This document shows, piece after piece, positions 2,942 through 57,674 of a DNA stretch of 64,000 nucleotides. Both the position numbers and the translations under genes were made by a program. How positions within the stretch are numbered: the first letter of the stretch is position 1; each line of letters starts with the position of its first letter. Location of the stretch: positions 20,360,494 through 20,424,493 of the forward strand of contig NC_087082.1 of the NCBI RefSeq assembly GCF_026151205.1, read 5' to 3'. The notes under the pieces are model-generated. The model worked only from the letters and a program-made list of their open reading frames with translations. It was not told where the DNA came from and searched no databases. Origin of the DNA: Bolinopsis microptera (Eukaryota > Ctenophora > Tentaculata > Lobata > Bolinopsidae).

Positions 2942-3123
2942 TACACGACGCAGTCCCACACGCTTTATTGCCTGGTAATGGAATTAGCTGAAGGGGGAGA
3001 GTTGCTGACATTCGTCAAGAACAACAACGAACACAAGCGTCTTGAGGAGGCAAAGGCGAGACCTTTCGTACGCCAACTCATATCAGCTCTATACTATCTT
3101 CATAGCAAGGGCATCGTTCACAG
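2942..3123 (+). CDS. Kinase exon A: hinge, helices D-E, up to catalytic HR
   Basis: Phase 0 in, phase 2 out. Encodes the hinge and helices D-E ([36 protein letters not shown]) and ends in GIVH plus AG of the HRD Arg codon. The donor gtaacg lies inside the first unit of a 36-bp repeat that also copies the last 11 exon bases. Confidence 0.85.
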
Positions 3124-6100
3124 GTAACGTTAGATTTATGAAGGAGTAATCGTTCACAGGTAACGTTAGATTTATGAAGGAGTAATCGTTCACAGGTAAC
3201 GTTAGATTTATGAAGGAGTAATCGTTCACAGGTAACGTTAGATTTATGAAGGAGTAATCGTTCACAGGTAACGTTAGATTTATGAAGGAGTAATGCGTTC
3301 ACAGGTAACGTTAGATTTATGAAGGAGTAATCGTTCACAGGTAACGTTTAAAGATTTATGGATTCGTTGCAGGAATCAAACTGTTAAGTCCATAGTTTTA
3401 AGTTCCTGATTATTCTAAATTGAATCATTTAGATAAGTTAAATATTCCTGATCACTAAAATCTATGCAACAGTAATAGGGATACATTATAAGTTCTATTG
3501 TGATTAAGTCAAAAAAGAGAAAATTAGTCGGCAAATGATTTTAAAAGAGAGTTGGGATGGGGGGAGGAGGCAAAGGTACCTACAGTGTGTTTAGGCCTGT
3601 TATCTCAGATGATAGTAATATTTGCTGAATCAAGTGGTAAAATACGTAGATCGTTTTCTTATAGGATCGTTTATTGGTGGTGGTTCCCCAGAACTAATCA
3701 ATTATTCCGATGGTCTTATCAGCAGGTGGTTATGTGCCTTTCCTCGGTAGAATGTTCCGCGGTATTACAAACGCTGTCATTATGCATTTCTCTAGAGTTT
3801 CCAAAATAGTTGGAGAAAGACAGCACCCTAGCTCCGTCGTTACAGGGATAATTATGATTTGCCAATATTTGACCAAAGTTTACTTCAGAGATTTGAAGAT
3901 GGAAAACATCCTGCTCAACAAAAAGAAGACTGAAGTTAAAATAATCGGTGAGTCATTTAATTGGCAAGTTTCTTCTCTCTTCGCCTCTATCCTTTTGGGT
4001 TTTATCGTTCTCTTTCTTCGATAATTGATCTTATCGTTTTTCTAAAGTTCAACGCAGCTCACGACTGATTATCACTCAGAGGACTGAGCCAAACACAATC
4101 ATTTAAATTCGAAGCAAAATAATCGAGAAAACAACTTGCTTTCAAATTTGAAATTTTGGAATATATGGTTCCGCGCTATTGAGAATGGAGATTGTGTTGT
4201 CAGTAAAATGGCATCAGATATAAAATACATACTGCATCTAAATATATCATCTATTTTTTCCCTCGGGCATAAATACTTTTTTTCAGTCAAATAGTCAGAT
4301 ATTACATCGGTTATCAGACTGTGGATTGTTTAATCCTGATTAGTCGTGTTTATAGTAAAACTTCATTTCTTATTGTGTCAGCGCCTTCCTGGCTCAGTTG
4401 GTTAGAGCGTCAGTCTCATAATCTGAAGGTCGTGAGTTCGAGCCTCACGGAGGGCATAGATTTTGTCCAATCACAAACAAGAATGGTTAATTTCTAGAAA
4501 GAGTTGAGAGGTTTCAAATCACTTTTATCTTCTATCCAATAAAACTTCACACTACCCCTGTCAAGATAAAGAATGTTTCATTAGCAAGTGAACCAATGTT
4601 CAGTCCAATATTCTCGTGTGTGATCGGGGAGATCAAATTGCCACGAATATGGTCGTAATAGCTCTAATTATAAGGTTAAGTATTGGAATCTTGCTCTTTC
4701 ACCCTCATTAGCATCATTATCCCTTAACTCGCTGTTCAAGTTTACTGATCCTATTTTTAGCACATTTTGATCACAAAGCAATAATTCTGAATGCCTGCAA
4801 CCGAAACCACGCCCTAAATATTCTAATTTCTTATCCTGTAACCTGGAACCACGATTTTGGTGACCCTAAAACCCGGTTCACGGTAAGTATGTATAGTCAA
4901 CCAATTTGCAGGTATCAGGCCGCCCAAACTTCTCGTAGAGCTGTTATTAACATATCGGTTGACTTGTCGTTACTTGTGTGCCAACTGGCACGTGAGCCAA
5001 ATAATAACCATGTAAGTTGAATATACCACGTATAAATATGGTAAACTGTTCAAGAGCCTCACTAATTACACTCGCATCTGCTTGTACAAGCAAATCATGA
5101 TGACCGTGGTGGATATTAATTGCACAGCCATTGGTCCAGGGGCCAATCGTCTACATTTAATCACGATTTGTAGTGTATGGAACGCGCGAAACTTATTTTA
5201 AAATGAAAATATGAAGCAACTCAGCGCCCAGTGTGACATGACGAGAAATTCTGTATTCGGACTATTGAAAGTCGTGTGCCCCATGAAATACTTTCGGATT
5301 CTGATATGATCCTTTTCTCTTCTTTGGGACACCTCATGCTGGTTGAATCACACCTATCTGATATATTTTGTTGATAAGACTGAGCTGAACGGATTTGTAT
5401 GCAAATCTGAAATCGGGCCAGATGTGCAGTGCGCGGCTTATAGGATTATAGTCCGTACTTTCACGTACTGGACGATTTGTAAACAAAGGATTGTTGAAAA
5501 TTGAAATTTGAAACTTGAACAGGGCAATGTCATAAAAAACCCTAGTTTATCAATCGTCACATCCATCAGGCATATGCGTTTCTAACCAAGGACTTGTTCG
5601 AGAGGAAAGATTCACCTAGCAGTACCGACCCACAGTAATCAGTATTTACTATTTAGGTACTACGCTATAAATTTGGGAGTCATGGCAACAGCACTCACCA
5701 AACACATCCCCAGATTTTGGTTTGAGTAATCACCACGAGGTCGGAGAACTGTTGTCCACACATTGCGGCTCTCCAGAGTATGCTGCTCCGGAGTTATTTG
5801 TTGCTGGCCGACAGTACGGCGCTGAGGTTTGTCTTTTAACAAGTGCATTGTTGAGTGTGAGAGACGTTTTTTTTAAACACTTCTACTACTACTACTATGT
5901 CGGAACTAAGTCCGATCGACGCCAGATAACCCCCTCCATATATCCTTGTCCCACATCAGGGTTCGCAGTTCCTCTTTAGAGTTTGTCCCAACTTCCTTCA
6001 GTAACAGTTATAAAAATGGTGGGTTCTTTATCTGCCCCAATCCAGACTCCAGAGTCAGACCATCATGTCAAAACCTTCAGGCTAAATGAAATGAAATAAG

Positions 6101-9100
6101 TAAATTAAATGAGTAAATAGCTACAAGGATTACGTTCTGATCGAGCAATAACAATGAATAATGAATAATGTGTTACTGAAATTTCCCCTACAGGTTGACG
6201 TGTGGAGTTTAGGTGTGAACATGTACGCCATGTTAGTCGGTAAACTGCCCTTCAGATCCTCCCGGAACCACAGCAACCCCCGAGCCAAGCTCCTTCAACA
6301 GATATCAGCCGGGCTGGGCGCTCATCAGGAGGCTGATGCCGCTCATCTTCATCCCTGTGAGTATAATGTACTTCAGTACCAGGTAACCAGGTAACCAGGT
6401 AACCAGGTAACCAGGTAACCAGGTAACCAGGTAACCAGGTAACCAGGTAACCAGGTAACCAGGATGCCGCTCATCTTCAACCCTGTGAGTATGATGTACT
6501 TCAGTACCAGGTAACCAGGTAACCAGGTAACCAGGTAACCAGGTAACCAGGTAACCAGGTAACCAGGTAACCAGGTAACCAGGTAACCAGGTAACCAGGT
6601 AACCAGGTAACCAGGTAACCAGGTAACCAGGATGCCGCTCATCTTCATCCCTGTGAGTATCATGAGTTTTTGGAGAAGGAGGTTGGGTTTCAAAAATAAA
6701 TTGAATGGTTTATCAGGAATTTGGATGCTTATTACATGATTGCTCATTAATTTAAAGCTTATCTTCCATTATTATATTTCATATCTGAGGTTTACACACC
6801 ATTCTTTTCTGAAGAGTAACAACTGATAAAGATCCTATTTCAGCGTGTCTAAATCTGATAAAAGGGATGTTACAACCAGACCCCTGTAAAAGGCTGAAGC
6901 TGACTGCTGTAATGCAACACCCGTGGGTTACGAACAAGGGAACGTGGCCTCTTTACCCTTACATTACCCCCAAGTGTAATGATGCCTTAGAAAAACAGGT
7001 AGGTCACTTCAGTACCAGGTAACCAGGTAACCAGGTAACCAGGTAACCAGGTAACCAGGTTGCCATGGGTAACGAACAAGGGAACGTGGCCTCTTTACCC
7101 TTACATTACCCCCAAGTGTAATGATGCCTTAGAAAAACAGGTAGGTCATTATAGGAGGGCAGTTTTGTTCAACAACATAAACTGTGTTTGTGCTGGGCAT
7201 TTTTCGGCTTTTTCAAATCTCTTTGAAATAAAATTTGTCAAAATCTCTCGTTAAAAAATAAACTTTGTCAATATTACCCGTAAAAAATTTGTCAAAAACT
7301 CTCGTTAAAAATAAAATTTGTCAGACTTTGCCGGGGGTCCCTCCAAACATCTCAGATCAAATAATCACGCACTCTCCCGATCCCACCTAAACCCCCTTTT
7401 GCCAGGTAATACACCAGATGTCACGACTGCTAAAAGTCAACCAGTCTGACATTAAACGAGCTATAGACGAGAACAGGCTGGACTGGATATCAGCTATTTA
7501 TCATCTGTTGATGCGGGACAAAGAACAACACCTCGCTGCTAAAGTTTCCAACGTAAGTTATTTGGGTTACGTGGTTAATCAATAATCATCTGTCATTTTA
7601 AAATTCATGACTCGACACAAACAAATTTTTCTTATCTCACCGATATTGAAGAGTGGAAGTTGTTGATAACCTACAGTACTTAGTCATCTGATAACAAGCT
7701 TCGAACACTTCTAGAATCTCAAATAACCCCCTCACATCCCCTCAGTTCCACGACCCCTCACTAACCCCTCGGTTCCCCGACCCCTCACTAACCCATCACC
7801 TCTTTACAACATCATCCCCAGCTGAAGACGATTTACACATGTATTTTGAAAGCTCCTGCTAAAACAAACTTTTCGTATCACTTATATGTTTTAAATAATC
7901 CCCATCCAGTCTCCAGACTAACCCATCAGTTCAACGACCCCTCACTAGCCCCTCAGTTCCCCGACCCCTCACTAACCCATCAGTTCAACGACCCCTCACT
8001 AACCCCTCAGTTACCCGACCCCTCACAAACCCCTCAGTTCCCCGACCCCCCACTAACCCATCAGTTCCATAACCCCTCACTCACCCCTCAGTTCCCCGAC
8101 CCCTCACTAACCCATCAGTTCCCCGACACCTCACTAACCCCTCAGTTCCCCGACACCTCACTAACCCCTCAGTTCCCCGACCCCTCACTAACCCCTCAGT
8201 TCCTCGACCCCTCACTAACCCCTCAGTTCACCGACCCCTCACCGACCCCTCAGTTCCCCGACCCCTCATTAACCCTCGTTCCCCGACCCCTCACTAACCC
8301 CTCACATCCCAGACCCCTCACTAACCCCTCACATCCCCGACCCCTCACTAACCCCTCCGTTCCCCGACCCCTCACTAACCCCTCAGTTCCCCGACCCCGC
8401 ACTAACCCCTCAGTTCCCCGACCCCGCACTAACCCCTCAGTTCCACGACCCCTCACTAACCCCTCAGTTCCCCGACCCCCCACTAACCCATCAGTTCCAT
8501 AACCCCTCACTCACCCCTCAGTTCCCCGACCTCTCTCTAACCCCCCGTTCCCCGACCCCTCACTAACCCCTCACATCCCCGACCCCTCACTAACTCCTCC
8601 GTTCCCCGACCCCTCACTAACCCCTCAGTTCCCCGACCCCGCACTAACCCTCAGTTCCCCGACCCCGCACTAACCCCTCAGTTCCCCGACCCCTCACTAA
8701 CCCCTCCGTTCCCCGACTCCTCACTAACCCCTCCGTTCCCCGACCCCTCACTAACCCCTCAGTTCCCCGACCCCTCACTAACCCCTCAGTTCCCCGACCC
8801 CTCACTAACCCCTCACTTCCCCGACCCCTCACTAACCCCTCCATTCCCCGACCCCTCACTAACCCCTCACATCCCAGACCTCGCTGAGTGGTGAGATGAC
8901 GGAGAGTACGAGTGGAGTGGGGACCTCTATTGCAGACGAGCAGGAGTCCAAGACAATAGAGCAGATCACAGCACTCACCCTGAACGGCAGACACAGCTCC
9001 CCTGCTACTCCTCTAATGTAAGTTTATTTAGAGACACAGCTCCCCTGCTACTCCTCTAATGTAAGTTTAGTTAGAGACACAGCTCCCCTGCTACTCCTCT

Positions 9101-12100
9101 AATGTAAGTTTATTTAGAGACACAGCTCCCCTGCTACTCCTCTAATGTAAGTTTAGTTAGAGACACAGCTCCCCTGCTACTCCTCTAATGTAAGTTTATT
9201 TAGAGACACAGCTCCCCTGCTACTCCTCTAATGTAAGTTTAGTTAGAGACACAGCTCCCCTGCTACTCCTCTAATGTAAGTTTAGTTAGAGACACAGCTC
9301 CCCTGCTACTCCTCTAATGTAAGTTTAGTTAGAGACACAGCTCCCCTGCTACTCCTCTAATGTAAGTTTAGTTAGAGACACAGCTCCCCTGCTACTCCTC
9401 TAATGTAAGTTTAGTTAGAGACACAGCTCCCCTGCTACTCCTCTAATGTAAGTTTATTTAGAGACACAGCTCCCCTGCTACTCCTCTAATGTAAGTTTAT
9501 TTAGAGACACAGCTTCCCTGCTACTCCTCTAATGTAAGTTTATTTAGAGACACAGCTCCCCTGCTACTCCTCTAATGTAAGTTTATTTAGAGACACAGCT
9601 CCCCTGCTACTCCCCTAATGTAAGTTTAGTTAGAGACACAGCTCCCCTGCTACTCCTCTAATGTAAGTTTATTTAGAGACACAGCTCCCCTGCTACTCCT
9701 CTAATGTAAGTTTAGTTAGAGACACAGCTCCCCTGCTACTCCTCTAATGTAAGTTTAGTTGGAGACACAGCTCCCCTGCTACTCCTCTAATGTAAGTTTA
9801 TTTAGAGACACAGCTCCCCTGCTACTCCTCTAATGTAAGTTTATTTAGAGACACAGCTCCCCTGCTACTCCTCTAATGTAAGTTTATTTAGAGACACAGC
9901 TCCCCTGCTACTCCTCTAATGTAAGTTTATTTAGAGACACAGCTCCCCTGCTACTCCTCTAATGTAAGTTTATTTAGAGACACAGCTCCCCTGCTACTCC
10001 TCTAATGTAAGTTTATTTAGAGACACAGCTCCCCTGCTACTCCCCTAATGTAAGTTTAGTTAGAGACACAGCTCCCCTGCTACTCCTCTAATGTAAGTTT
10101 ATTTAGAGACACAGCTCCCCTGCTACTCCTCTAATGTAAGTTTATTTAGAGACACAGCTCCCCTGCTACTCCTCTAATGTAAGTTTAGTTGGAGACACAG
10201 CTCCCCTGCTACTCCTCTAATGTAAGTTTATTTAGAGACACAGCTCCCCTGCTACTCCTCTAATGTAAGTTTAGTTGGAGACACAGCTCCCCTGCTACTC
10301 CTCTAATGTAAGTTTATTTAGAGACACAGCTCCCCTGCTACTCCTCTAATGTAAGTTTATTTAGAGACACAGCTCCCCTGCTACTCCTCTAATGTAAGTT
10401 TATTTAGAGACACAGCTCCCCTGCTACTCCTCTAATGTAAGTTTATTTAGAGACACAGCTCCCCTGCTACTCCTCTAATGTAAGTTTATTTAGAGACACA
10501 GCTCCCCTGCTACTCCTCTAATGTAAGTTTATTTAGAGACACAGCTCCCCTGCTACTCCTCTAATGTAAGTTTATTTAGAGACACAGCTCCCCTGCTACT
10601 CCTCTAATGTAAGTTTATTTAGAGACACAGCTCCCCTGCTACTCCTCTAATGTAAGTTTATTTAGAGACACAGCTCCCCTGCTACTCCTCTAATGTAAGT
10701 TTAGTTAGAGACACAGCTCCCCTGCTACTCCTCTAATGTAAGTTTATTTAGAGACACAGCTCCCCTGCTACTCCTCTAATGTAAGTTTAGTTAGAGACAC
10801 AGCTCCCCTGCTACTCCTCTAATGTAAGTTTATTTAGAGACACAGCTCCCCTGCTACTCCTCTAATGTAAGTTTAGTTAGAGACACAGCTCCCCTGCTAC
10901 TCCTCTAATGTAAGTTTAGTTAGAGACACAGCTCCCCTGCTACTCCTCTAATGTAAGTTTATTTAGAGACACAGCTCCCCTGCTACTCCTCTAATGTAAG
11001 TTTAGTTAGAGACACAGCTCCCCTGCTACTCCTCTAATGTAAGTTTAGTTAGAGACACAGCTCCCCTGCTACTCCTCTAATGTAAGTTTAGTTAGAGACA
11101 CAGCTCCCCTGCTACTCCTCTAATGTAAGTTTAGTTAGAGACACAGCTCCCCTGCTACTCCTCTAATGTAAGTTTATTTAGAGACACAGCTCCCCTGCTA
11201 CTCCTCTAATGTAAGTTTAGTTGGAGACACAGCTCCCCTGCTACTCCTCTAATGTAAGTTTATTTAGAGACACAGCTCCCCTGCTACTCCTCTAATGTAA
11301 GTTTATTTAGAGACACAGCTCCCCTGCTACTCCTCTAATGTAAGTTTATTTAGAGACACAGCTCCCCTGCTACTCCTCTAATGTAAGTTTAGTTAGAGAC
11401 AAAGCTCCCCTGCTACTCCTCTAATGTAAGTTTAGTTAGAGACACAGCTCCCCTGCTACTCCTCTAATGTAAGTTTAGTTAGAGACACAGCTCCCCTGCT
11501 ACTCCTCTAATGTAAGTTTATTTAGAGACACAGCTCCCCTGCTACTCCTCTAATGTAAGTTTATTTAGAGACACAGCTCCCCTGCTACTCCTCTAATGTA
11601 AGTTTAGTTGGAGACACAGCTCCCCTGCTACTCCTCTAATGTAAGTTTATTTAGAGACACAGCTCCCCTGCTACTCCTCTAATGTAAGTTTATTTAGAGA
11701 CACAGCTCCCCTGCTACTCCTCTAATGTAAGTTTATTTAGAGACACAGCTCCCCTGCTACTCCTCTAATGTAAGTTTATTTAGAGACACAGCTCCCCTGC
11801 TACTCCTCTAATGTAAGTTTATTTAGAGACACAGCTCCCCTGCTACTCCTCTAATGTAAGTTTATTTAGAGACACAGCTCCCCTGCTACTCCTCTAATGT
11901 AAGTTTATTTAGAGACACAGCTCCCCTGCTACTCCTCTAATGTAAGTTTATTTAGAGACACAGCTCCCCTGCTACTCCTCTAATGTAAGTTTATTTAGAG
12001 ACACAGCTCCCCTGCTACTCCTCTAATGTAAGTTTAGTTAGAGACACAGCTCCCCTGCTACTCCTCTAATGTAAGTTTATTTAGAGACACAGCTCCCCTG

Positions 12101-15100
12101 CTACTCCTCTAATGTAAGTTTAGTTAGAGACACAGCTCCCCTGCTACTCCTCTAATGTAAGTTTAGTTAGAGACACAGCTCCCCTGCTACTCCTCTAATG
12201 TAAGTTTAGTTAGAGACACAGCTCCCCTGCTACTCCTCTAATGTAAGTTTAGTTAGAGACACAGCTCCCCTGCTACTCCTCTAATGTAAGTTTATTTAGA
12301 GACACAGCTCCCCTGCTACTCCTCTAATGTAAGTTTAGTTAGAGACACAGCTCCCCTGCTACTCCTCTAATGTAAGTTTAGTTAGAGACACAGCTCCCCT
12401 GCTACTCCTCTAATGTAAGTTTAGTTAGAGACACAGCTCCCCTGCTACTCCTCTAATGTAAGTTTATTTAGAGACACAGCTCCCCTGCTACTCCTCTAAT
12501 GTAAGTTTATTTAGAGACACAGCTCCCCTGCTACTCCTCTAATGTAAGTTTAGTTAGAGACACAGCTCCCCTGCTACTCCTCTAATGTAAGTTTAGTTAG
12601 AGACACAGCTCCCCTGCTACTCCTCTAATGTAAGTTTAGTTAGAGACACAGCTCCCCTGCTACTCCTCTAATGTAAGTTTAGTTAGAGACACAGCTCCCC
12701 TGCTACTCCTCTAATGTAAGTTTAGTTAGAGACACAGCTCCCCTGCTACTCCTCTAATGTAAGTTTAGTTAGAGACACAGCTCCCCTGCTACTCCTCTAA
12801 TGTAAGTTTAGTTAGAGACACAGCTCCCCTGCTACTCCTCTAATGTAAGTTTATTTAGAGACACAGCTCCCCTGCTACTCCTCTAATGTAAGTTTAGTTA
12901 GAGACACAGCTCCCCTGCTACTCCTCTAATGTAAGTTTAGTTAGAGACACAGCTCCCCTGCTACTCCTCTAATGTAAGTTTATTTAGAGACACAGCTCCC
13001 CTGCTACTCCTCTAATGTAAGTTTAGTTAGAGACACAGCTCCCCTGCTACTCCTCTAATGTAAGTTTATTTAGAGACACAGCTCCCCTGCTACTCCTCTA
13101 ATGTAAGTTTAGTTAGAGACACAGCTCCCCTGCTACTCCTCTAATGTAAGTTTATTTAGAGACACAGCTCCCCTGCTACTACTCTAATGTAAGTTTATTT
13201 AGAGACACAGCTCCCCTGCTACTACTCTAATGTAAGTTTATTTAGAGACACAGCTCCCCTGCTACTCCTCTAATGTAAGTTTATTTAGAGACACAGCTCC
13301 CCTGCTACTACTCTAATGTAAGTTTAGTTAGAGACACAGCTCCCCTGCTACTCCTCTAATGTAAGTTTATTTAGAGACACAGCTCCCCTGCTACTCCTCT
13401 AATGTAAGTTTAGTTAGAGACACAGCTCCCCTGCTACTCCTCTAATGTAAGTTTATTTAGAGACACAGCTCCCCTGCTACTCCTCTAATGTAAGTTTAGT
13501 TAGAGACACAGCTCCCCTGCTACTCCTCTAATGTAAGTTTAGTTAGAGACACAGCTCCCCTGCCACTCCTCTAATGTAAGTTTAGTTAGAGACACAGCTC
13601 CCCTGCTACTCCTCTAATGTAAGTTTATTTAGAGACACAGCTCCCCTGCTACTCCTCTAATGTAAGTTTAGTTAGAGACACAGCTCCCCTGCTACTCCTC
13701 TAATGTAAGTTTATTTAGAGACACAGCTCCCCTGCCACTCCTCTAATGTAAGTTTAGTTAGAGACACAGCTCCCCTGCTACTCCTCTAATGTAAGTTTAT
13801 TTAGAGACACAGCTCCCCTGCTACTCCTCTAATGTAAGTTTAGTTAGAGACACAGCTCCCCTGCTACTCCTCTAATGTAAGTTTATTTAGAGACACAGCT
13901 CCCCTGCCACTCCTCTAATGTAAGTTTAGTTAGAGACACAGCTCCCCTGCTACTCCTCTAATGTAAGTTTAGTTAGAGACACAGCTCCCCTGCTACTCCT
14001 CTAATGTAAGTTTATTTAGAGACACAGCTCCCCTGCTACTCCTCTAATGTAAGTTTAGTTGGAGACACAGCTCCCCTGCTACTCCTCTAATGTAAGTTTA
14101 TTTAGAGACACAGCTCCCCTGCTACTCCTCTAATGTAAGTTTAGTTAGAGACACAGCTCCCCTGCTACTCCTCTAATGTAAGTTTAGTTAGAGACACAGC
14201 TCCCCTGCTACTCCTCTAATGTAAGTTTATTTAGAGACACAGCTCCCCTGCTACTCCTCTAATGTAAGTTTATTTAGAGACACAGCTCCCCTGCTACTCC
14301 TCTAATGTAAGTTTATTTAGAGACACAGCTCCCCTGCTACTCCTCTAATGTAAGTTTAGATAGAGACACAGCTCCCCTGCTACTCCTCTAATGTAAGTTT
14401 ATTTAGAGACACAGCTCCCCTGCTACTCCTCTAATGTAAGTTTAGTTAGAGACACAGCTCCCCTGCTACTCCTCTAATGTAAGTTTAGTTAGAGACACAG
14501 CTCCCCTGCTACTCCTCTAATGTAAGTTTAGTTAGAGACACAGCTCCCCTGCTACTCCTCTAATGTAAGTTTAGTTAGAGACACAGCTCCCCTGCTACTC
14601 CTCTAATGTAAGTTTAGTTAGAGACACAGCTTCCCTGCTACTCCTCTAATGTAAGTTTAGTTAGAGACACAGCTCCCCTGCTACTCCTCTAATGTAAGTT
14701 TAGTTAGAGACACAGCTCCCCTGCTACTCCTCTAATGTAAGTTTAGTTAGAGACACAGCTCCCCTGCTACTCCTCTAATGTAAGTTTATTTAGAGACACA
14801 GCTTCCCTGCTACTCCTCTAATGTAAGTTTAGTTAGAGACACAGCTCCCCTGCTACTCCTCTAATGTAAGTTTAGTTAGAGACACAGCTCCCCTGCTACT
14901 CCTCTAATGTAAGTTTATTTAGAGACACAGCTCCCCTGCTACTCCTCTAATGTAAGTTTATTTAGAGACACAGCTCCCCTGCTACTCCTCTAATGTAAGT
15001 TTAGTTAGAGACACAGCTCCCCTGCTACTCCTCTAATGTAAGTTTATTTAGAGACACAGCTCCCCTGCTACTCCTCTAATGTAAGTTTATTTAGAGACAC

Positions 15101-37112: not shown

Positions 37113-37121
37113 CCATTCACA

Positions 37122-40100: not shown

Positions 40101-40500
40101 TTGTATTTCTTGGTTCAGCCGCCACAATGTATTATATTATCATTATTATCCAATATTACGTAGTGTTGTGTAATTTTGTGAATTTAAACAGCCCAGCATT
40201 GCAATATAATAGTAGTAGTAGTAGTTGCTATAGTTACTATATATTGCAATATAATAACCGGTAATAATTTGACACTTGATTTGGACGACAGATATCCCCG
40301 CTGTTGCTTCACTTTAACTAATATCTACTATATAGTAATATAACTAGTATCTAGCTGCCTTATTCGGTAACTATCTAGCTGCCTTTTCAAATCCGGTTCT
40401 TGCCCTCTCCAACATGATGATCATTAGAATTATTGAGTCAGTCATTTTAGCATGTTTCTCGTGAGGTTGTATATCTTTTAAGAGACTCGATCAATCAAAT
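37122..40500. other. Intergenic, no supported gene
   Basis: Read in six frames without finding an exon with family resemblance. Contains short CACGTG-rich stretch near 38650-38705 and gtagtagtagtag near 40210. Confidence 0.45.
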
Positions 40501-40522
40501 CTAATGGTATTTCCTTGTGTGC

Positions 40523-42024
40523 ACGTAAGCAATATGTTCGGATGACCGGTAGCATGGCTACAGAAGTAAGCAATATGTTCGGATGACCGGTAGCTATGGT
40601 AGCTATGGTAACTATGGTAACTATGGTAACTATGGTAACTATGGTAGCTATGGTAGCTATGGTAACTATGGTAGCTATGGTAACTATGGTAGCTATGGTA
40701 GCTATGGTAACTATGGTAACTATGGTAACTATGGTAGCATGGCTACAGAAGTAAGCAATATGTTCGGATGACCGGTAGCTATGGTAACTATGGTAACTAT
40801 GGTAACTATGGTAACTATGGTAGCATGGCTACAGAAGTAAGCAATATGTTCGGATGACCGGTAACTATGGTAACTATGGTAGCTATGGTAACTATGGTAA
40901 CTATGGTAACTATGGTAACTATGGTAACTATGGTAACTATGGTAACTATGGTAACTATGGTAACTATGGTAGCATGGCTACAGAAGTAAGCAATATGTTC
41001 GGATGACCGGTAGCTATGGTAACTATGGTAACTATGGTAACTATGGTAACTATGGTAACTACGGTAACTATGGTAACTATGGTAACTACGGTAACTATGG
41101 TAACTATGGTAACTATGGTAACTATGGTAACTATGGTAACTATGGTAACTACGGTAACTATGGTAACTATGGTAACTATGGTAACTATGGTAACTATGGT
41201 AACTATGGTAACTATGGTAACTATGGTAACTATGGTAACTATGGTAACTATGGTAACTATGGTAGCATGGCTACAGAAGTAAGCAATATGTTCGGATGAC
41301 CGGTAGCTATGGTAACTATGGTAACTATGGTAACTATGGTAACTATGGTAACTATGGTAACTATGGTAACTATGGTAACTATGGTAACTATGGTAACTAT
41401 GGTAACTATGGTAACTATGGTAACTATGGTAACTATGGTAACTATGGTAACTATGGTAACTATGGTAGCATGGCTACAGAAGTAAGCAATATGTTCGGAT
41501 GACCGGTAGCTATGGTAACTATGGTAACTATGGTAACTATGGTAGCATGGCTACAGAAGTAAGCAATATGTTCGGATGACCGGTAGCTATGGTAACTATG
41601 GTAACTATGGTAACTATGGTAGCATGGCTACAGAAGTAAGCAATATGTTCGGATGACCGGTAGCTATGGTAACTATGGTAACTATGGTAACTATGGTAGC
41701 ATGGCTACAGAAGTAAGCAATATGTTCGGATGACCGGTAGCTATGGTAACTATGGTAACTATGGTAACTATGGTAGCATGGCTACAGAAGTAAGCAATAT
41801 GTTCGGATGACCGGTAGCTATGGTAACTATGGTAACTATGGTAACTATGGTAGCATGGCTACAGAAGTAAGCAATATGTTCGGATGACCGGTAGCTATGG
41901 TAACTATGGTAACTATGGTAACTATGGTAGCATGGCTACAGAAGTAAGCAATATGTTCGGATGACCGGTAGCTATGGTAACTATGGTAACTATGGTAACT
42001 ATGGTAGCATGGCTACAGAAGTAT
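40523..42024. repeat. Compound array: 9-bp taactatgg runs between copies of a ~40-bp cassette
   Basis: A cassette (ggctacagaagtaagcaata..tgttcggatgaccggtag) recurs about 13 times, separated by 3 to about 27 units of taactatgg. Cassettes carry gaa|gtaagc, a donor consensus. The last ~8 repeats are a regular 78-bp higher-order unit with three to four inner units. Confidence 0.93.
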
Positions 42025-44152: not shown

Positions 44153-44331
44153 AATAGCCCACGTGGGGATGGTGATTTGATTCCGTTAATCAAATTCCGT
44201 TAATAAGGTCAGACTGAAAAGTAAATAGTAAAAACCAAAATGAGAAAATAGTAGGACTACCCATTAAAACATACGTGGGACAGTCTCAAAAAATGGATGC
44301 TGGCTGATTCACCACCCCCACGTGGGCTATT
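44153..44331. mobile_element. Small MITE candidate with CACGTG in its inverted ends
   Basis: Ends aatagcccacgtggggatgg and its approximate inverse (accacccccacgtgggctatt) bracket about 180 bp. No clear target duplication. Confidence 0.5.
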
Positions 44332-48329: not shown

Positions 48330-48458
48330 ATTGCACGAACACAGAGTACACGGAGGTAGCGAGTAAGCAGTGTTCCAGATACCAGGTTAAGATTAATGGG
48401 GTCTGCAAGGACCCGCTCTGTAAGAAGGGCTACTTCCTCAAAGACAACTACTGTCACA
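48330..48458 (+). CDS. R-spondin-like exon: furin-like repeat, first part
   Basis: 129 bp, phase 1 in and out, acceptor gttctcag, donor gtaagt. Encodes CTNTEYTEVASKQCSRY, INGVCKDPLCKKGYFLKDN and YCH. In-frame stop at 48275 and no ATG after it show that an upstream exon is needed. Confidence 0.75.
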
Positions 48459-51400
48459 GTAAGTTAATATATTACATTTGTCTGTTTACTTGTTTAAGAG
48501 GCTAAATATGTTCATATCATCAATTAACTAATTAACTGTTTCGCTAAAACAGAAACTTATTTTTATAGAAAACAAAAGAAATTTATTGAAACTAAGATTA
48601 GATATGAAATCCAAAACTTATGACAAATTGAAAACGTAAAAAACATTACATCAAAAATTCCATCGTCGTTGTACGTATATTTGTATAGGCTTCTAAGTGT
48701 TACAATAGCATAGTAACAATGCATTTGTTGCTACATATTCTCCGCCACATACTATACGCTATAACATTAACTGATCATTCTCCCGCGCGTAACTACTAGT
48801 TACCATAGTTACACTACTAGTTACCATAGTTACTGTTTCAGGATGCCACTTCTCCTGCAAGAGCTGTATTGCGTATGACGTGTGCGACTCCTGCGCGGGG
48901 ACCCGGTCTCTGCACGGCGGCACGTGCCATTCCAAGTGCCCTAGGAAACACCGGTCAACATACTCTGACAGCACACTTGGAATTAAGATCTGCACTAAAA
49001 GGAAGCACCTTCAAGGTTTGTTTTTCTTTCATTTTTTAAAGATAACTACCTAGTTTATTTTTTTACTACTTAAGATTGGCAGTTGTTGTAAAAGTTAGCT
49101 CTCACAGTATTATAACACAGTAGGTACAGGTGTAAAGGTCATCTTCTCATCAAAATCTTGAAACATTTCATTCTTTCAGTAGTCCCAATTATCGTCCAAC
49201 TCAACGAAGTTTAATAATCTACGGATATTTATAGTACTTTTAGATTTTAGATTTCAATTTTCAAACATTGTGAGATTACTTAGGCACTAAAATTGTTATT
49301 CCTTGGAAAATTTTGTATTTTTTGAAGGCCGTTAAGGCATTTGACCCAGTCAAAAAAGTTTCAGTTTTATATCTTTTACGGTTTTTGCGGAACGTCGTGT
49401 TAAAGTTGATGCCGTGGTGTCGGTAAAATGGTACGGATATATATATATACATATATGCCTATATATATCGTATCGCTTTATGTATAGTTAGATTCTCAGA
49501 TATTATCCCAGGCGTGTTCAATTATTCAAAGATCATGTAAAGATATAAATACTTGAATTTGTTTATAAATTAAATGCGAACGTGTTGCATAATTATGGTC
49601 AATAATGATTTAGTTCTATTATCGATCTAGATATCCGCAATAAGTAATCCCCGGAAATTAGTTTGGAAATATATTTCCTGTGGTTGGTAGCCTGTTAGTG
49701 CCCAGTATTACCATCCCAAAGACTCTGAAAGTATGTCAGAGGAGCTCGAATTGAGGAGATTAGAATATTTTCCTATTGAAGCTGGGTAAAAGTAATGCTG
49801 AGCTGATCGTATAGTCAAGAGTTGATCAAAAAAAACATCAAACAGTCTCCATTTGTCATTTGATGGCTGCTCCCCTCAATTACCATCTCCCCGGACGTGT
49901 CTACTCCGCACAACTGTACAACTACCCGAACTTGTCTCGGTCCCTTCAAAAGTTTCCTCTTTTCCTCCTGGTCTCCTTCTTTCTCCGTCCCGGTCCCTTC
50001 CCGGTCCCTCTCCCCCGGTCCCTCCTGGTATGAAAGAAGGAGCCGGCATCATCATCCGGCACCCGACTGTTTTTATCGTTGCAGCTAATGTTCACAGTCC
50101 TCTATTTGGCTCATCCCGTGACTTACAAGCCTGCAACCTTTTACTAACAGTACCAGGACTAGGCCTGGGAGACATGACGCACTGCACTTATTGTGATGAT
50201 GTAGTTATTATCATCTCCCTCCTTCAACCCTCTCTTTTTGTCCTTCTCTTCTCCCTTGATCATGTGACCATGATCATGTAACCCTTTTAACCAGGGGGGC
50301 TACGTGCCCTTTTAACGTGAGTGAAATACTGCAACTCTGTCTCTTAGCTCTCACAACCGAGCTTTTTATCTCAAACTTTTCATGTTTACGGTATGGAGCC
50401 AGGGTGTGGCTACACATGGTTAAAACATTTCATTCTCATTACATTATACTGATGTATTCTGGGTAAAATTATCTTTATCCCGGTTGTTGCGACAAGTAAA
50501 AATGCTCTTATTAGGGAAAGGAGATTACTCGATGTTTCAATGTAACTACATCGTATTCATGATCTCAAATTATTTGTTATATAGTAGTGTTGAAAGTATT
50601 AAAAAGTTGAAAGTATTAAAAAGTAGTTACATTGAAACATCGAGTAATCTCCTTTCCCTAATAAGAGCATTTTTACTTGTCGCAACAACCGGGATAAAGA
50701 TAATTTTACCCAGAATACATTACAACAATGCGACTCATAAATAATACTCCAATCCGGATTTTACACATTATACTGAGATACAATAAATTATGCAATCATA
50801 AGATTATACTCAATAAAATATATTTAATCACAGAATCTTAGATATTTACTAGTGCGCTCATCTCTGTGGAGATATTCTCTCATCATATCTTATATTAGTG
50901 TTATAGTGTAGCAGGAGTACCTCCTCCTCCTCCTCCTCCTCCTCCTCCTTCTTCTTTCATCTCCCTTAGTGTGGATATATTCTCTCATCCCTGTTTATAT
51001 ATCAGAGATATTGCCTCATTCCCTCTAAGTATTAAGATAGTGACGTAATATTTGATAACATGTAATAATCGTTATTATCCTATATCAACCTAGATTCCTC
51101 AAGATTCCACAAAATGACACCCGCGGTACAAGGAATATCTGCTTTTCAGAACTAAGGTTCCGCATCTCGGAGTTTGTCGTTGTACAGGTCCTGTTATTTC
51201 CGTGTCTGAACTAACAGGACCTGAAGGATGAATTACTATTCATAGGATGACGCGACTCCAGGTGGGGAGGGAATACACAACGCACTTGTAGACAATGCTT
51301 CATTTGTGTACTCGAGCTTTATTGGATTAAGTTGTATAGCCAGGGGAGCTCCAAATTCCCTTGTAAATAATCAATTATATGGTGTCTCGCCAGTCCAATC

Positions 51401-54400
51401 ATGAGATGCAGTAATGGAAATAATATCCTATTAAAGCAGCCCTCCACTAATCAGGTATGTGACATAGCACAAATTGTAATATCTCGACTCTCCGGTCCTA
51501 AGTATGATTTGTGTTGTAAATGGAGGAATTTTATGCAGTAGCGTATGGTATCGTGGTTTGGAAAATATGGTTTAGCTCATTGAAAGTCTGTTCTGCATAC
51601 CAAGGAATTTAGATGGAAGTTAGAACGCTGGTTCCGAGCCAAAAAGTGAGCGGTCTGTAACGATTTGTAACGGTCTATGATGGTCTGTAATCTACTTACT
51701 TATTTAGAAGTGGCAGCACTACTCAGAAGTTAGAAGTGGCCGTATATGCAGTAGCAGCACTGCTGTTTTTACGGATATTTCGCAGTGAGGGTAACACTGG
51801 AAGGGTTTGTAAGATATTACAAAGGAGTAAGCCCTACTTGTTCCGCCTAATTATATCTTTACTTTACAGTTCCGGCTAATTACGTCCACCCACCAATTTA
51901 CACTATAATATTCAATATTCCTGTCTTCTCCTCCCTTTGTCCTCCTCCCTTTGACTAGCAGTCTCTTGTTTTCTCTCTTGTTCTCTTCCTCAGAACGATG
52001 TACTCGTAATCTGTAAATAATATTAAATTGCAACGATATTTACGCTAAGTAGACTTTTCGAGGAAGCCTTGGTCTGAGAATTTACAGGATTCTTTTTATC
52101 TCGTAATGGGATAGACTTGCAATGAAAATTATGGTAGTAGGGACTGATAGAGACTATAAATAAAGTTAGTGATGTTTACGTAACTATTAGTCACTGTTAG
52201 TTTCGAATTCCAGTACACATTTAACTTCTACAATAATTAGTGTATAAATTTTGCCGCCCATCAAAGATATCCATATCGCACAGACAAGGAGCTCGTTTTT
52301 CACCGAAGATGACGTCGTACAAATAAAAGTAACTAAGCACTTAAGTTAAGTGTTTTTAGAGAATTTACTCTCGTTAAGTGACTTAACGAGAGTAAATTCT
52401 CTAAAAACACTCGAGATATTCAATTATTGTCCTTGACATGACGCTGTATCAACAAATCAAACAATTAATTAAATATTAATTAAATAATCTGCATTCTCTT
52501 GCAGTTAGTACCCCCCGAGCGTGAATCTCATGACAAACAGATTATTGTCCGGCTATTTCCAAGCATCTTGTTTTAACTTTGAACTGACAGTTTATAGTAA
52601 TATAAGATGCCTTAATTAAGCTAGAAGATTTAATAAAGTTTCGTCATACTCGGTGCGGCTAATGGTAATAAACAATCGCCCAAAATTTAACAAATTGTAT
52701 TAATACTCAGTGAGCACTCTCTCGTTAGTACTCTGCTATTTCCGATCAAAGTCAGAAGTATAATCTAACTAGCATCACAAGCCTGCCTGTCCCTGACGGA
52801 CGCGGTATATTATTGTATTATGGGTTATTTATATATTATTATGATGAGCGTTAGCTGACGTTGAGTATGAAATCGTTAAGTCGGTTATGATGGTGTTAAG
52901 CCGAAGTAGTCCCAAGATAATCCAGTGTAGAATGTTAAGATTGATGGTGAAAACTTAAAAATGACATTATATATAAATTTTGACATAACAGTTTCTAAAA
53001 ATATAATTTCTATCTACCTCATCCACTCATTGCTCAAATATCAGTTCCTGTTGACCTCTATTTGTCACGTGACCAGCTCTATATTCCAGATACCAGATGT
53101 GAGGTGGGAGAGTGGGACCAGTGGACAGAGTGCGGGAGAATTGGTGGACCTAATGTCAGAACCAGGACCAGGACAGTTGGAAAGGGACCTTCTTGTGTTG
53201 GCATCGCGCCAATTCAGCACAGACATTGTCTTTCTCTAGGATTTGGTAAGTTTTGAGCTGAAGTTTTTATGATAATATGTTTACTAATACTCTAGTCTCT
53301 AATTATACTACGTGATTGCAATGTTCTGTGAAACACGGACAATTTTATTTTGTTATTTTCGCTTTTCAAACTTCGTTCAGTTACAGCTTCTGAAAGCTGA
53401 TGAATCTCATTATGGATAATTAATAAACACGAGTTACCCTAATACTGTAACACACTGCAACACACTGTAACACACTGTAACACACTGTAACACACTGCTA
53501 CACACTGCAACACACTGCAACACACTGTTACACACTGTTACACACTGTAATACACTGCAACATACTGTAACACACTGCAACACACTGCAACACACTGTAA
53601 CACACTGTAACACACTGTGACACACTGTAACACACTGTAACACACTGTAACACACTGTAACACACTGCAACACATTGTAACACACTGTAAAACACACTGT
53701 AAAACACACTGTAACACACTGTAACACACTGTAACACACTGTAACACACTGTAACACACTGCAACACACTGTAACACACTGTAACACACTGTAACACACT
53801 GTAACACACTGCAACACACTGTAACACACTGTAACACCTACAGCGAGTGACTTAGCAGCGTGCGTTGTATCAGAGTGGTTACCATGGGAACAATGCGACT
53901 CGTCCTGTGAGAACAAGTTCAGGAGAAGGCGGAGGATCCTGGAGACTCCACCTGATGGAATGAGGAAGAAGAGAGCTCTGTGTCCGAACCTTGTGGAGGA
54001 GGAACCCTGCCCTTGTTACTTTCAGAACCAGGCATCTGTCAACGGTAAGTTGTGGTAGTTAATTAATTGATGAATTATCTAATTATTGATTAGTGGTAAT
54101 TTATTAATTGATTAATTAATTAGTGAGTATTGTTCTCATCTTTATTACATTTAATTTACTTTCTTCTCTCAATTCTAGAGCCAAGTCTAAGAACTATATC
54201 ATTTATTACCAACAAATGATTTATTATTAATAATGCTCAAGTTATACTAAATACCTGTAACATGTTGATTGTTACAGAGTTGAGTCAGTGTGAGATGGGG
54301 GAGTGTTATACTAAATACCTGTAACATGTTGATTGTTACAGAGTTGAGTCAGTGTGAGATGGGGGAGTGTTATATTAAATACCTGTAACATGTTGATTGT

Positions 54401-57400
54401 TACAGAGTTGAGTCAGTGTGAGATGGGGGAGTGTTATATTAAATACCTGATTGTTACAGAGTTGAGTCAGTGTGAGATGGGGGAGTGTTATATTAAATAA
54501 CACGTTGATTGTTACAGAGTTGAGTCAGTGTGAGATGGGGGAGTGTTATATTAAATAACACGTTGATTGTTACAGAGTTGAGTCAGTGTGAGATGGGGGA
54601 GTGTTATATTAAATACCTGATTGTTACAGAGTTGAGTCAGTGTGAGATGGGGGAGTGTTATACTAAATACCTGTAACATGTTGATTGTTACAGAGTTGAG
54701 TCAGTGTGAGATGGGGGAGTGTTATATTAAATACCTGTAACATGTTGATTGTTACAGAGTTGAGTCAGTGTGAGATGGGGGAGTGTTATATTAAATACCT
54801 GATTGTTACAGAGTTGAGTCAGTGTGAGATGGGGGAGTGTTATACTAAATACCTGTAACATGTTGATTGTTACAGAGTTGAGTCAGTGTGAGATGGGGGA
54901 GTGTTATATTAAATACCTGTAACATGTTGATTGTTACAGAGTTGAGTCAGTGTGAGATGGGGGAGTGTTATATTAAATACCTGATTGTTACAGAGTTGAG
55001 TCAGTGTGAGATGGGGGAGTGTTATACTAAATACCTGTAACATGTTGATTGTTACAGAGTTGAGTCAGTGTGAGATGGGGGAGTGTTATACTAAATACCT
55101 GTAACATGTTGATTGTTACAGAGTTGAGTCAGTGTGAGATGGGGGAGTGTTATATTAAATACCTGATTGTTACAGAGTTGAGTCAGTGTGAGATATGGGA
55201 GTGTTAGATTAAATACCTGTAACATGTTGATTGTTACAGAGTTGAGTCAGTGTGAGATGGGGGAGTGTTATATTAAATACCTGTAACATGTTGATTGTTA
55301 CAGAGTTGAGTCAGTGTGAGATGGGGGAGTGTTATATTAAATACCTGATTGTTACAGAGTTGAGTCAGTGTGAGATGGGGGAGTGTTATACTAAATACCT
55401 GTAACATGTTGATTGTTACAGAGTTGAGTCAGTGTGAGATGGGGGAGTGTTATATTAAATACCTGTAACATGTTGATTGTTACAGAGTTGAGTCAGTGTG
55501 AGATGGGGGAGTGTTATATTAAATACCTGTAACATGTTGATTGTTACAGAGTTGAGTCAGTGTGAGATGGGGGAGTGTTATATTAAATACCTGATTGTTA
55601 CAGAGTTGAGTCAGTGTGAGATGGGGGAGTGTTATACTAAATACCTGTAACATGTTGATTGTTACAGAGTTGAGTCAGTGTGAGATGGGGGAGTGTTATA
55701 TTAAATACCTGATTGTTACAGAGTTGAGTCAGTGTGAGATGGGGGAGTGTTATATTAAATACCTGTAACACGTTGATTGTTACAGAGTTGGGTCAGTGTG
55801 AGATGGGAGAGTGGACACCCTGGTCAGACTGTGACGCACCCTGTAACCAGGGGACCATGAAGAGGACCAAGTCACCGGAGGGTCCTCAGTACTCACCAGG
55901 CTGCAGAACCTTCACTGAGACCAGACCCTGTTGTCAGCAGACATGTCAAGGTACTGAACCTTTTTAGTGTTTTGTAGCGTTATTGTAGCGTTTTTGTAGC
56001 GTTTTGTAGTGTTTTTGTAGTGATTTGTAGCGTTTTGTAGCGTTATTGTAGCGTTTTTGTAGCGTTTTGTAGTGTTTTTGTAGTGTTTTGTAGCGTTTTG
56101 TAGTGTTTTGTAGTGTTTTTAGTGTCTTTGAAATGACTTAGTGTATTCTGTGTAAAATTATCTTTATCCCGGTTGTTGCGACAAGTGAAAATGCTCTTAT
56201 TAGGGAAAGGAGTTTACTCGACGTTTCAATGTAACTACATCGTATTCATGATCTCAAATTATTTGTTATATAGTAGTGTTGAAAGTATTAAAACCGGGAT
56301 AAAGATAATTTTACACAGAATACATTACAACAATGCGACTCATAAATAATACTCCAATCCGGATTTTACAAATGACTTAGTGGTATGTTTCAAATGTGTG
56401 TGTTTCAGATTACTGTTCGGGAACACTACTAGGAGACTGGTCTAGCTGGGGGAAGTGTGAGGGCACCTGTGAGCACAGTACTCGCCGCAGAGTCAGGAGC
56501 AATCTCTTCCCTTCCGTTCTCATGTTCTGCGAGCTACACCAGCTCTACATGGAGATACCCTGTAAAAAGAGGGGCTGCAAAGGTTAGCTTTATCTGTTGT
56601 TAGTTTTATCACACTGTTGTTAGTTTTATCACACTGTTGTTAGTTTTATCACACTGTTGTTAGTTTTATCTGTTGTTAGTTTTATCTGTTGTTAGTTTTA
56701 TCACACTGTTGTTAGTTTTTATCACACTGTTGTTAGTTTTATCACACTGTTGTTAGTTTTATCACACTGTTGTTAGTTTTTATCGCACTGTTGTTAGTTT
56801 TATCTGTCGTTAGTTTTACCTGTTGTTAGTTTTATCACATTGTTGTTAGTTTTATCTGTCGTTAGTTTTACCTGTTGTTAGTTTTATCACATTGTTGTTA
56901 GTTTTATCACACTGTTGTTAGTTTTATCACACTGTTGTTAGTTTTATCACACTGTTGTTAGTTTTATCACACTGTTGTTAGTTTTATCACACTGTTGTTA
57001 GTTTTATCTGTTGTTAGTTTTATCTGTTGTTAGTTTTATCACACTGTTGTTAGTTTTTATCGCACTGTTGTTAGTTTTATCTGTCGTTAGTTTTACCTGT
57101 TGTTAGTTTTATCACATTGTTGTTAGTTTTATTTGTCGTTAGTTTTACCTGTTGTTAGTTTTATCACATTGTTGTTAGTTTTATCACACTGTTGTTAGTT
57201 TTATCACACTGTTGTTAGTTTTATCACACTGTTGTTAGTTTTATCACATTGTTGTTAGTTTTATCACACTGTTGTTAGTTTTATCACAATGTTGTTAGTT
57301 TTATCACACTGTTGTTAGTTTTATCACACTGTTGTTAGTTTTGTCAGATTCTGCTGTTGCAGGGTAATACAATAGCACAAAAGTCGTGATTAGAATCAGA

Positions 57401-57674
57401 ATACATTGTGGCCGGTTTTGGTTGTGTCATATTTGAACACATAATTTGTGTAGGATTGTGTCTTATTAAGTCCAGTTTTGTGTCTTATTAAGTTCAGTAT
57501 TGTGTCTTATTAATTTATTATACTCAACAATTGTCTCCCTCAGACCAATGCGTGTTAAGTGAGTGGGGAGATTGGTCTGCTTGTGATAACAACATAAAGT
57601 CCAGACACAGACAAATGCTATCCGGAAACAAATGCCCGAGTCCGGAACTCATGGACTCCATTCCTTGCAGCTGA
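48330..57674 (+). CDS. R-spondin-like secreted protein: furin-like repeats plus five TSP1 modules (5' exon not found)
   Basis: Join 48330-48458, 48842-49015, 53090-53245, 53844-54044, 55786-55950, 56409-56582, 57544-57674. Every intron is phase 1, as expected for shuffled extracellular modules, and the frame ends at TGA. The first two exons give Cys-rich furin-like repeats (CHFSCKSCIAYDVCDSC, GGTCHSKCP); the next five each give a thrombospondin type 1 module with WxxW-type cores (CEVGEWDQW, EWLPWEQC, CEMGEWTPWSDC, GDWSSWGKC, CVLSEWGDWSAC). Furin-like repeats followed by TSP1 is the R-spondin layout; R-spondins raise Wnt signalling through LGR receptors and ZNRF3/RNF43. Vertebrate members have one TSP1, so five is unusual. 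No signal-peptide exon of matching phase could be identified between 44300 and 48330. Another FU/TSP1 secreted protein is possible. Confidence 0.8.
48781..48833 (+). repeat. Two 21-bp units next to an acceptor
   Basis: actactagttaccatagtta twice, inverse of the kinase exon H array unit, ending about seven bases before the acceptor of the second furin-like exon. Confidence 0.8.
48842..49015 (+). CDS. R-spondin-like exon: furin-like repeat, second part
   Basis: 174 bp, phase 1 in and out, acceptor tgtttcag, donor gtttgt. Encodes CHFSCKSCIAYDVCDSCAG, LHGGTCHSKCPRKH and KICTKRKHLQ: the C-x2-C-x2-C..CDSC..GTC..CP spacing of furin-like repeats. Two copies of a 21-bp repeat stop seven bases before the acceptor AG. 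Confidence 0.8.
50453..50764. mobile_element. Palindromic non-autonomous element, full copy
   Basis: A near-perfect inverted repeat of about 90 bp per arm (tgtattctgggtaaaatt.. and its inverse ending near 50720) is followed by a single-copy tail ending ccggattttac. Flanked by a 12-bp direct repeat acattatactga (50441-50452 and 50765-50776), read as target-site duplication. Lies in the long intron of the R-spondin-like gene. Confidence 0.8.
52351..52411. repeat. Perfect 30-bp-arm hairpin
   Basis: gtgtttttagagaatttact.. (30 bases) is followed after one base by its exact inverse, ending taaaaacac. Confidence 0.93.
53090..53245 (+). CDS. TSP1 module 1
   Basis: 156 bp, phase 1 in and out. Encodes RCEVGEWDQWTECGRIGG, VRTRTRTVGKGPSCVG and HRHCLSLG: TSP1 Trp ladder, basic R-x-R strand and conserved Cys. 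Confidence 0.85.
53448..53837 (+). repeat. 10-bp (gtaacacact) array before TSP1 module 2
   Basis: About 39 units with gc and gt variants, ending directly before the cctacag acceptor of exon 53844. Confidence 0.95.
53844..54044 (+). CDS. TSP1 module 2
   Basis: 201 bp, phase 1 in and out. Encodes ACVVSEWLPWEQCDSSCEN, KFRRRRRILETPP and LCPNLVEEEPCPC. The 10-bp gtaacacact array ends about seven bases before its acceptor. Confidence 0.85.
54247..55785 (+). repeat. 64/54-bp array spanning the acceptor of TSP1 module 3
   Basis: 26 copies of gattgttacag|agttg (the last is the genuine acceptor). Each unit copies 28 exon bases (agttgagtcagtgtgagatg..) and then intron sequence. Long units include taacatgttg and hit TAA in the exon frame; short units lack those ten bases and stay in frame into the next unit. 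Confidence 0.96.
55786..55950 (+). CDS. TSP1 module 3
   Basis: 165 bp, phase 1 in and out. Encodes LGQCEMGEWTPWSDCDAPCN, MKRTKSPEGPQYSPGC and TRPCCQQTCQ. Its acceptor and first 28 bases are the template for 25 upstream tandem copies; the genuine copy differs where the Trp codon (TGG) replaces TGT. Confidence 0.87.
55965..56125 (+). repeat. Short-unit array after TSP1 module 3 donor
   Basis: Irregular units of gtagcgtttt / gtagtgtttt beginning about 15 bases after the donor. Confidence 0.85.
56142..56369. mobile_element. Second copy of the same element, right arm mostly deleted
   Basis: Same left arm, centre and tail as the copy at 50453, but most of the right arm is missing, from the centre to ccgggataaag. 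Flanked by aaatgacttag(tg) at 56131 and 56370. Lies in the intron between TSP1 modules 3 and 4. Confidence 0.8.
56409..56582 (+). CDS. TSP1 module 4
   Basis: 174 bp, phase 1 in and out. Encodes YCSGTLLGDWSSWGKCEG, TCEHSTRRRVRSN and MEIPCKKRGCK. A tandem array based on gttagttttat begins at its donor. Confidence 0.85.
56583..57343 (+). repeat. ~21-bp array starting at TSP1 module 4 donor
   Basis: The donor gttagctttatctgttg is the first unit; about 37 units of gttagttttatcacactgtt follow, with shorter gttagttttatctgt variants. Past the donor the frame reads GGT TAG. Confidence 0.95.
57544..57674 (+). CDS. TSP1 module 5 and stop
   Basis: Phase 1 in, acceptor ccctcag. Encodes QCVLSEWGDWSACDNN, SRHRQMLSGNKCPSP and DSIPCS then TGA. 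The module ends at its last Cys with no basic tail like that after TSP1 in vertebrate R-spondins. Confidence 0.83.

Follow-up and report, generated by a model that had tools for sequence, protein, structure and literature searches.

In amphioxus, minisatellites termed mirages have been described at the exon-intron boundaries of the Adh3 and globin genes, with regular splicing and with lengths that change between haplotypes (PMC3087553). In such arrays a short segment that spans a junction is duplicated locally in tandem; the exon keeps one intact junction at its side, and the additional copies turn into intron. Among ctenophores, a report on Hormiphora states that Tandem Repeats Finder (TRF) marks 13% of the genome as repeats and that introns and intergenic DNA have an elevated insertion-deletion rate (PMC8527503). 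Here we describe tandem arrays at the splice junctions of a 64,000-nucleotide stretch of the ctenophore Bolinopsis microptera (assembly GCF_026151205.1, contig NC_087082.1, positions 20,360,494 to 20,424,493), hereafter the window. We found that arrays lie at intron ends far more often than random placement predicts. The arrays are probably mirage-type minisatellites in a genome rich in tandem duplication, in which local duplications cross exon-intron borders and the extra copies turn intronic.

Exon models were rebuilt from reading frames, splice signals and homology, which gave four exon stretches: a kinase (6 exons), a kinase tail (3), a gene called gene 2 (8) and a TSP1 gene (7). These have 21 introns and 42 intron ends, and all window junctions are predictions from DNA alone. 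The kinase exons match the Pkinase domain and a SIK3-type UBA in Pfam, the relatives named include HUNK, NUAK, MARK and AMPK-alpha entries, and the top matches were from sea urchin and annelid at about 50%. Five exons of the TSP1 gene, scanned one at a time, each gave a TSP1 family match in Pfam (best E between 5e-9 and 0.0025); of its two furin-like exons, one has a sub-cut-off furin-like match (E 0.0066) and the other had none. No Pfam family was found for the kinase tail or gene 2 in the two frames scanned.

TRF returned 69 rows for the window, and arrays with a score of at least 50 were counted. As a control, each intron's own arrays were placed at random inside that intron in 4000 simulations. 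An array was found within 25 base pairs (bp) of 14 of the 42 intron ends (9 donors and 5 acceptors) where 3.8 were expected, within 15 bp of 12 ends where 2.36 were expected, and within 5 bp of 7 ends where 0.9 were expected; at each distance 0 of the 4000 simulations reached the observed number. This confirms that the association of arrays with junctions in the window is real. The preliminary description had listed 15 array-bearing junctions, and by our matching of its labels a TRF array lies no more than 25 bp from 13 of them. A fourteenth, the acceptor of kinase exon H at 19618, has no such array but is crossed by a two-copy duplication (19553 to 19628; like the other junction arrays and duplications of the window, on the plus strand) in which 32 of 33 bases agree, 22 being intronic and 11 exonic. 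The remaining one, the exon G acceptor at 8936, did not hold up, as the nearest array is 55 bp away. One junction can be added, the acceptor at 33978.

Arrays make up 57% of the intron bases of the window and 9% of those of 86 introns elsewhere, so the window is exceptional. In introns so rich in arrays, exon ends that lie inside an array can be set at will, and gene 2 is without homology support in the frame scanned, so that chance, flexible exon calls and selective reading could make the association look stronger than it is. We give this explanation hardly any credence, because the excess is kept in the 9 introns that lie between Pfam-supported exons, where 6 of 18 ends have an array within 15 bp against 1.22 expected (0 of 4000 simulations). 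Adding the two furin-like exons gave 7 of 22 ends against 1.39. In addition, a sample of other genes, described below, contains arrays that straddle junctions and repeat kinesin motor codons.

Two layers of arrays can be distinguished. One consists of repeat units that themselves run across the junction; TRF arrays include exon bases at four window junctions (3123, 9017, 30175 and 55786). A 36-bp unit in 6.5 copies (3113 to 3348) spans the donor of Pfam-supported kinase exon A (2942 to 3123) and consists of 11 exon bases (ATCGTTCACAG) and 25 intron bases. At the acceptor 55786 of a Pfam-supported TSP1 exon, 26 copies of a 64-bp unit (54241 to 55813) contain TTGATTGTTACAG/AGTTGAGTCAGTGTGAGATGG, where the slash marks the exon-intron border here and below; two bases of the exon copy deviate from the array consensus. 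A further donor, predicted at 30175 (AGCAAG/GTGAGC), is crossed by 74 copies of a 42-bp unit (30158 to 33266). This array is open throughout in the predicted gene frame (1085 codons), so that splicing from a distal donor would add repeats of 14 residues, and by inspection by hand its commonest unit variants alter residues.

The largest array, 244 copies of a 43-bp unit (8989 to 19483), crosses the predicted donor at 9017, each unit holding 29 exon and 14 intron bases. None of the 242 full copies departs from GTAAGT, which would fit a maintained function of the repeated splice sites in the control of splicing or expression. However, only 9 of the 43 positions vary at all, which makes this invariance unsurprising and leaves too few variable positions to judge selection on splice sites within the copies. 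Donor-like motifs in genic arrays had no clear sense bias, as judged from the counts (21 sense, 12 antisense, 1 both and 81 neither). We therefore regard a maintained function as very improbable.

Other arrays of the window abut junctions. A 30-bp unit in 18 copies (28777 to 29322) starts 20 bp past the predicted donor 28756, and a 32-bp unit in 2.1 copies (33909 to 33975) ends 3 bp short of the predicted acceptor 33978. At the predicted acceptor 48842 of the second furin-like exon (furin-like E 0.0066) the association consists of 2.0 copies of a 21-bp unit (48792 to 48833), ending 9 bp short of the exon. In the TSP1 gene, a 10-bp unit in 39 copies (53444 to 53837) ends 7 bp short of the Pfam-supported TSP1 exon acceptor 53844, an array with periods of 10, 21 and 63 bp (55961 to 56120) starts 10 bp past the donor 55950, and one with periods of 20 and 277 bp (56583 to 57346) starts at the first intron base past the donor 56582. 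All of these were called by TRF. We also noted an element that looks palindromic by eye and has two copies of 97% identity (50453 to 50768 and 56142 to 56373), the second of which directly follows a TSP1-intron array.

In the second layer, an intronic short-unit array separates two or three copies of the junction, the exon end and splice site being duplicated on both sides. Four further junctions are of this kind: three donors (kinase exon D at 6356, kinase exon E at 6998, and 19710) and one acceptor (gene 2 exon 3, at 23685). The end of exon D and its donor (GATGCCGCTCATCTTCATCCCT/GTGAGTAT) occur three times (6335 to 6664) with 8-bp ACCAGGTA arrays (6378 to 6631) between the copies. The end of the exon at 19618 to 19710 and its donor, about 57 bp, also occur three times (19660 to 20269; BLAST found the outer copies, and the middle one was recognised by eye), here with 21-bp GTAAC-core arrays between them. 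At 23685 the acceptor and exon start are duplicated (23111 to 23742; 79 bp, 93.7% identity) around an 8-bp ACCTAGTA array (23186 to 23670). At exon E (6921 to 7148) two 86-bp copies of the exon end and donor (6921 to 7006 and 7063 to 7148), 97.7% identical, flank an insert with an 8-bp array, and a 55-bp part of this insert, which takes in bases ahead of the array, is identical to sequence of the exon D intron. We read this as a duplication with a templated insert, and the exact 55-bp match to the upstream intron within the 86-bp duplication supports template switching as its probable origin.

The 8-bp units belong to a dispersed minisatellite family with a GTAACC core, which occurs as ACCTAGTA and ACCAGGTA in both orientations (for example C1:40457 and C1:1100046). 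Overlapping exact triples numbered 2399 for ACCTAGTA and 4515 for ACCAGGTA genome-wide, against 0 for a reversed-pattern control. These units also occur in a myosin gene and an SLC6 gene, and when units of at most 25 bp were compared between places, the two 8-bp units and one 21-bp unit recurred. Some of the places listed for the 8-bp units have blocks about 100-160 bp apart. A composite array outside the modelled genes (40525 to 42023), in which a block ending ACAGAAGTAAGCAATATG alternates with GGTAACTAT repeats, has the same layout as the duplicated junctions.

To place the window beside other genes, exons of myosin, SLC6, kinesin and dynein genes were located by Pfam searches of the genome. 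The sequence sampled comprised four myosin stretches, exons with about 350 bp on each side, and 8 of 13 kinesin pieces, trimmed to flanks of 150-200 bp; the kinesin genes had been picked for long introns before their sequence was inspected. We used 70 of 73 myosin matches, leaving out one member of a pair of adjacent exons that resemble each other as well as two matches in a second gene copy, and 74 of 88 SLC6 matches, the other 14 lying in apparent duplicate copies. A junction caller applied to neighbouring exon pairs called 68 of 120 and left 52; of the 104 sides of these uncalled pairs, 54 were called singly and 50 stayed uncalled. For dynein the templates were paralogous dyneins, and 18 of 23 pairs were called and 5 were not, and 25 kinesin sides were set by hand from scored sites. 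In total this gave 251 sides (136 paired, 54 single, 36 dynein and 25 kinesin). The number of straddling arrays expected was derived from unit length and background density, the background being 26 array ends in 46 kilobases at 31-350 bp from junctions at a score of at least 60.

At this score we found 7 straddling arrays against 1.8 expected (P 0.003) and 10 more with the near end at -3 to 15 bp against 2.27 (P 1.3e-4), a density of near ends about 4 times that found 31-350 bp away; these and the following P values are optimistic, because sides within one gene are not independent. The excess outside the window depends on the TRF score threshold. At a score of at least 50 there were 7 straddlers against 2.19 (P 0.007) and 11 near ends against 3.40 (P 8e-4), and at a score of at least 100 there were 7 straddlers against 1.28 (P 4e-4) and 3 near ends against 1.31, which is not significant (P 0.15). 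When the placement test was applied to the 136 paired sides, arrays within 15 bp numbered 7 against 3.76 (P 0.056), 7 against 2.51 (P 0.002) and 3 against 1.66 (P 0.16) at the thresholds of 50, 60 and 100. Among the 10 near-end cases, 6 have fewer than 3 copies (3 acceptors and 3 donors).

The 7 straddlers outside the window, 2 at donors and 5 at acceptors, lie in myosin, SLC6 and kinesin genes; one of them (C3 myosin, 48 bp in 2 copies) is on a weakly called acceptor. A myosin 8-bp array ending near an acceptor (L055) was left out, since its exon pair had been dropped. In kinesin L116 the unit TTTTCTCAG/GTTTTCGTTTATAGACCTGGCTGGTAGTG, 4.8 copies of which are present, holds the codons for FSFIDLAGS and the acceptor, and by eye the exon copy looks identical to the array units. 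In kinesin L118 a 69-bp unit in 3.5 copies crosses the donor that follows INTSLSELG. In both kinesins the repeated codons lie in the Pfam-matched motor domain. In the myosin gene at C2:3.17 Mb a 40-bp unit in 9.8 copies crosses a singly called donor and includes 31 exon bases. These three examples were found independently of the window. Two other measures were set aside. Array coverage falls towards junctions, but this was not used as a test, since near-junction bins include short introns and such a fall is expected if arrays are barred from exons. The pattern GTAAGT-N6-GTAAGT had 1896 matches against 370 for its reverse; the places mix tetranucleotide runs and 12-bp arrays, and it was not used.

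Arrays lie at junctions more often than expected both in the window and in the other genes, and the claim of the preliminary description that arrays pick junctions more often than chance holds in both samples, though outside the window with a sensitivity to threshold. Its observation that repeat units hold exon codons was also borne out at the four window junctions named above. The causes that it had proposed fared less well. Selection that tolerates arrays only at junctions is wrong, because arrays also occur deep in introns and outside the modelled genes. A process directed at the 5' splice site, such as an R-loop or nick, would be expected to give a donor bias, which was not seen: outside the window arrays touched 7 of the 114 donors, compared with 10 of the 137 acceptors. 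That donors and acceptors are affected alike disfavours a process specific to the 5' splice site.

A broader form of junction-directed mutation would have duplications start more often at junctions of either kind, for example through polymerase pausing, nucleosome edges or composition steps that promote breaks and template switching. The excess in the window (12 ends against 2.4) and the excess of near ends and straddlers outside it favour such a bias. However, the excess is not significant at every threshold, the near-end cases with fewer than 3 copies may be ordinary small duplications, and there is no donor bias. We consider this explanation possible but rather unlikely. A bolder version, which we think about as unlikely, would make splice junctions hot spots of tandem duplication in this ctenophore lineage, with exon borders drawing break or template-switch repair about 4 times as often as the intron interior, the GTAAC satellite copied into borders, and intron length written largely from the junction outwards.

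Two SLC6 introns bear on whether the arrays are older or younger than the introns that hold them. The intron at profile position 260.7 (phase 2) of the gene on C11 is straddled by a 49-bp array of 7.6 copies, and its position and phase are shared by the paralogue on C5, whose intron is 283 bp long and has no touching array. This comparison of sequences points to an array that was probably added to a pre-existing intron. The intron at position 249.0 (phase 0) of the gene on C2 is almost filled by a 35-bp array (about 447 of 485 bases) whose units contain CTACAG/GTATGTAG, and an intron at this position and phase was not seen among the sampled paralogue introns. It is a candidate for intron gain or sliding. 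The latter case would fit the Rogers model, in which introns are born or slide by tandem duplication of AG/GT segments and the arrays are remnants, and gains of this type have been described (PMC4974935; PMC2891723). Against this stand the straddled C11 intron that is shared with a paralogue without a touching array, and the finding by eye that most straddling units hold one splice site only. As an account of the arrays we judge the Rogers model highly unlikely.

We favour the mirage-type explanation, in which a local tandem duplication of about 25-90 bp would first arise across an exon-intron border, apparently through repair of a break or of replication with template switching. The border next to the exon would stay intact, the spliceosome could still make the old messenger RNA, and the other copies would become intron. 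The array would then grow and be homogenised by unequal exchange, here up to 244 copies. In the second layer, dispersed GTAAC-core short units (8 and 21 bp) would have been expanded or copied between duplicated borders. A border-crossing duplication should cost little, because a single good junction next to the exon is enough for the spliceosome and one remains; a duplication of this kind within an exon would frequently cause a frameshift. The straddling units, the exon codons repeated in introns, the excess both inside and outside the window, the involvement of donors and acceptors, and the presence of the straddled C11 intron in a paralogue without a touching array all speak for this explanation.

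Several points weigh against it. Survival of an intact junction explains why arrays persist but not why they are in excess at borders. A filter against duplications in exons alone predicts 1.3 to 2.2 straddlers and a flat density of near ends, and both were exceeded; neutral duplication combined with that filter does not on its own predict that array ends should be about 4 times more numerous at 0-15 bp from a junction than they are at 31-350 bp. The use of the exon-proximal copy is an assumption. Being intronic and part of a dispersed family, the 8-bp arrays are distinct from the straddling units, and among the dynein genes 0 of 18 introns had an array within 25 bp of an end. The excess at borders may reflect a mutational bias, small duplications of an ordinary kind in the neighbourhood of splice sites, or a survival advantage of arrays tied to an exon copy under constraint.

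Other features of the window were noted in passing. A transfer RNA gene, the sole Rfam match at the gathering threshold, lies within a kinase intron (4383 to 4456). A single-frame rhodopsin-family receptor (Pfam 7tm_1; 24648 to 25640, minus strand) has 140 relatives at E of at most 0.001, and Mnemiopsis leidyi is the sole organism named among the 120 listed; against this species the best identity was 42% over 306 residues, and closer matches stand at 74-76%. By eye, 25990 to 27290 has long inverted ends and a broken transposase-like frame. A reverse transcriptase frame (Pfam RVT_1) at 61949 to 63250 is probably similar to a long interspersed nuclear element. Elsewhere in the genome many kinase domains lie within one open frame, and six dynein heavy-chain matches lie in open frames of 1670-3703 codons. 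This suggests that introns were lost in some genes beside intron growth in others.

We found no report of junction arrays in ctenophores in the open-licence literature, judged by titles and abstract openings, a scope outside which most subscription papers and preprints fall. As far as that search goes, what is new is the phylum, the scale, the combination of junction copies with a dispersed family of short units, and the control against intron interiors. In the literature consulted, mirages have been reported from a few amphioxus genes; they would now extend to an unrelated animal, in which they occur in several gene families, reach giant copy numbers and exceed expectation at junctions by a measurable amount. 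This makes it possible to test, on one assembly and with full-length cDNA, whether introns grow, and perhaps slide, by way of duplication. The arrays also bear on how the spliceosome chooses one donor among hundreds of identical ones, and they warn that in genomes of this type predicted genes may have wrongly placed exon ends.

Among known systems the amphioxus mirages are the closest. In both, units span the exon-intron boundary and hold exon bases (here in 4 TRF arrays in the window and 7 outside it), and 5' and 3' boundaries are both affected. As to the mirage trait that the copy next to the exon escapes homogenisation, two examples point different ways: two bases deviate at 55786, and the copy in kinesin L116 looks identical by eye. 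In contrast to amphioxus, the arrays described here are in a ctenophore, reach 244 copies and occupy several junctions per gene, some borders are duplicated around a dispersed GTAAC-core satellite, and the excess over the intron interior has been measured. Intron gain by tandem duplication, as described for potato RdRp and for near intron pairs of Drosophila (PMC4974935; PMC2891723), is similar in that the duplication crosses an intron-exon boundary or carries a proto-splice site; however, a new intron results there, whereas here one straddled intron appears to have existed before its array and one is a candidate gain. Introners resemble these arrays as repeated DNA with splice signals that occupies introns (PMC9860276), but they are described as inserting copies of themselves into many genes, whereas the straddling units of Bolinopsis contain exon bases of the gene in which they lie.

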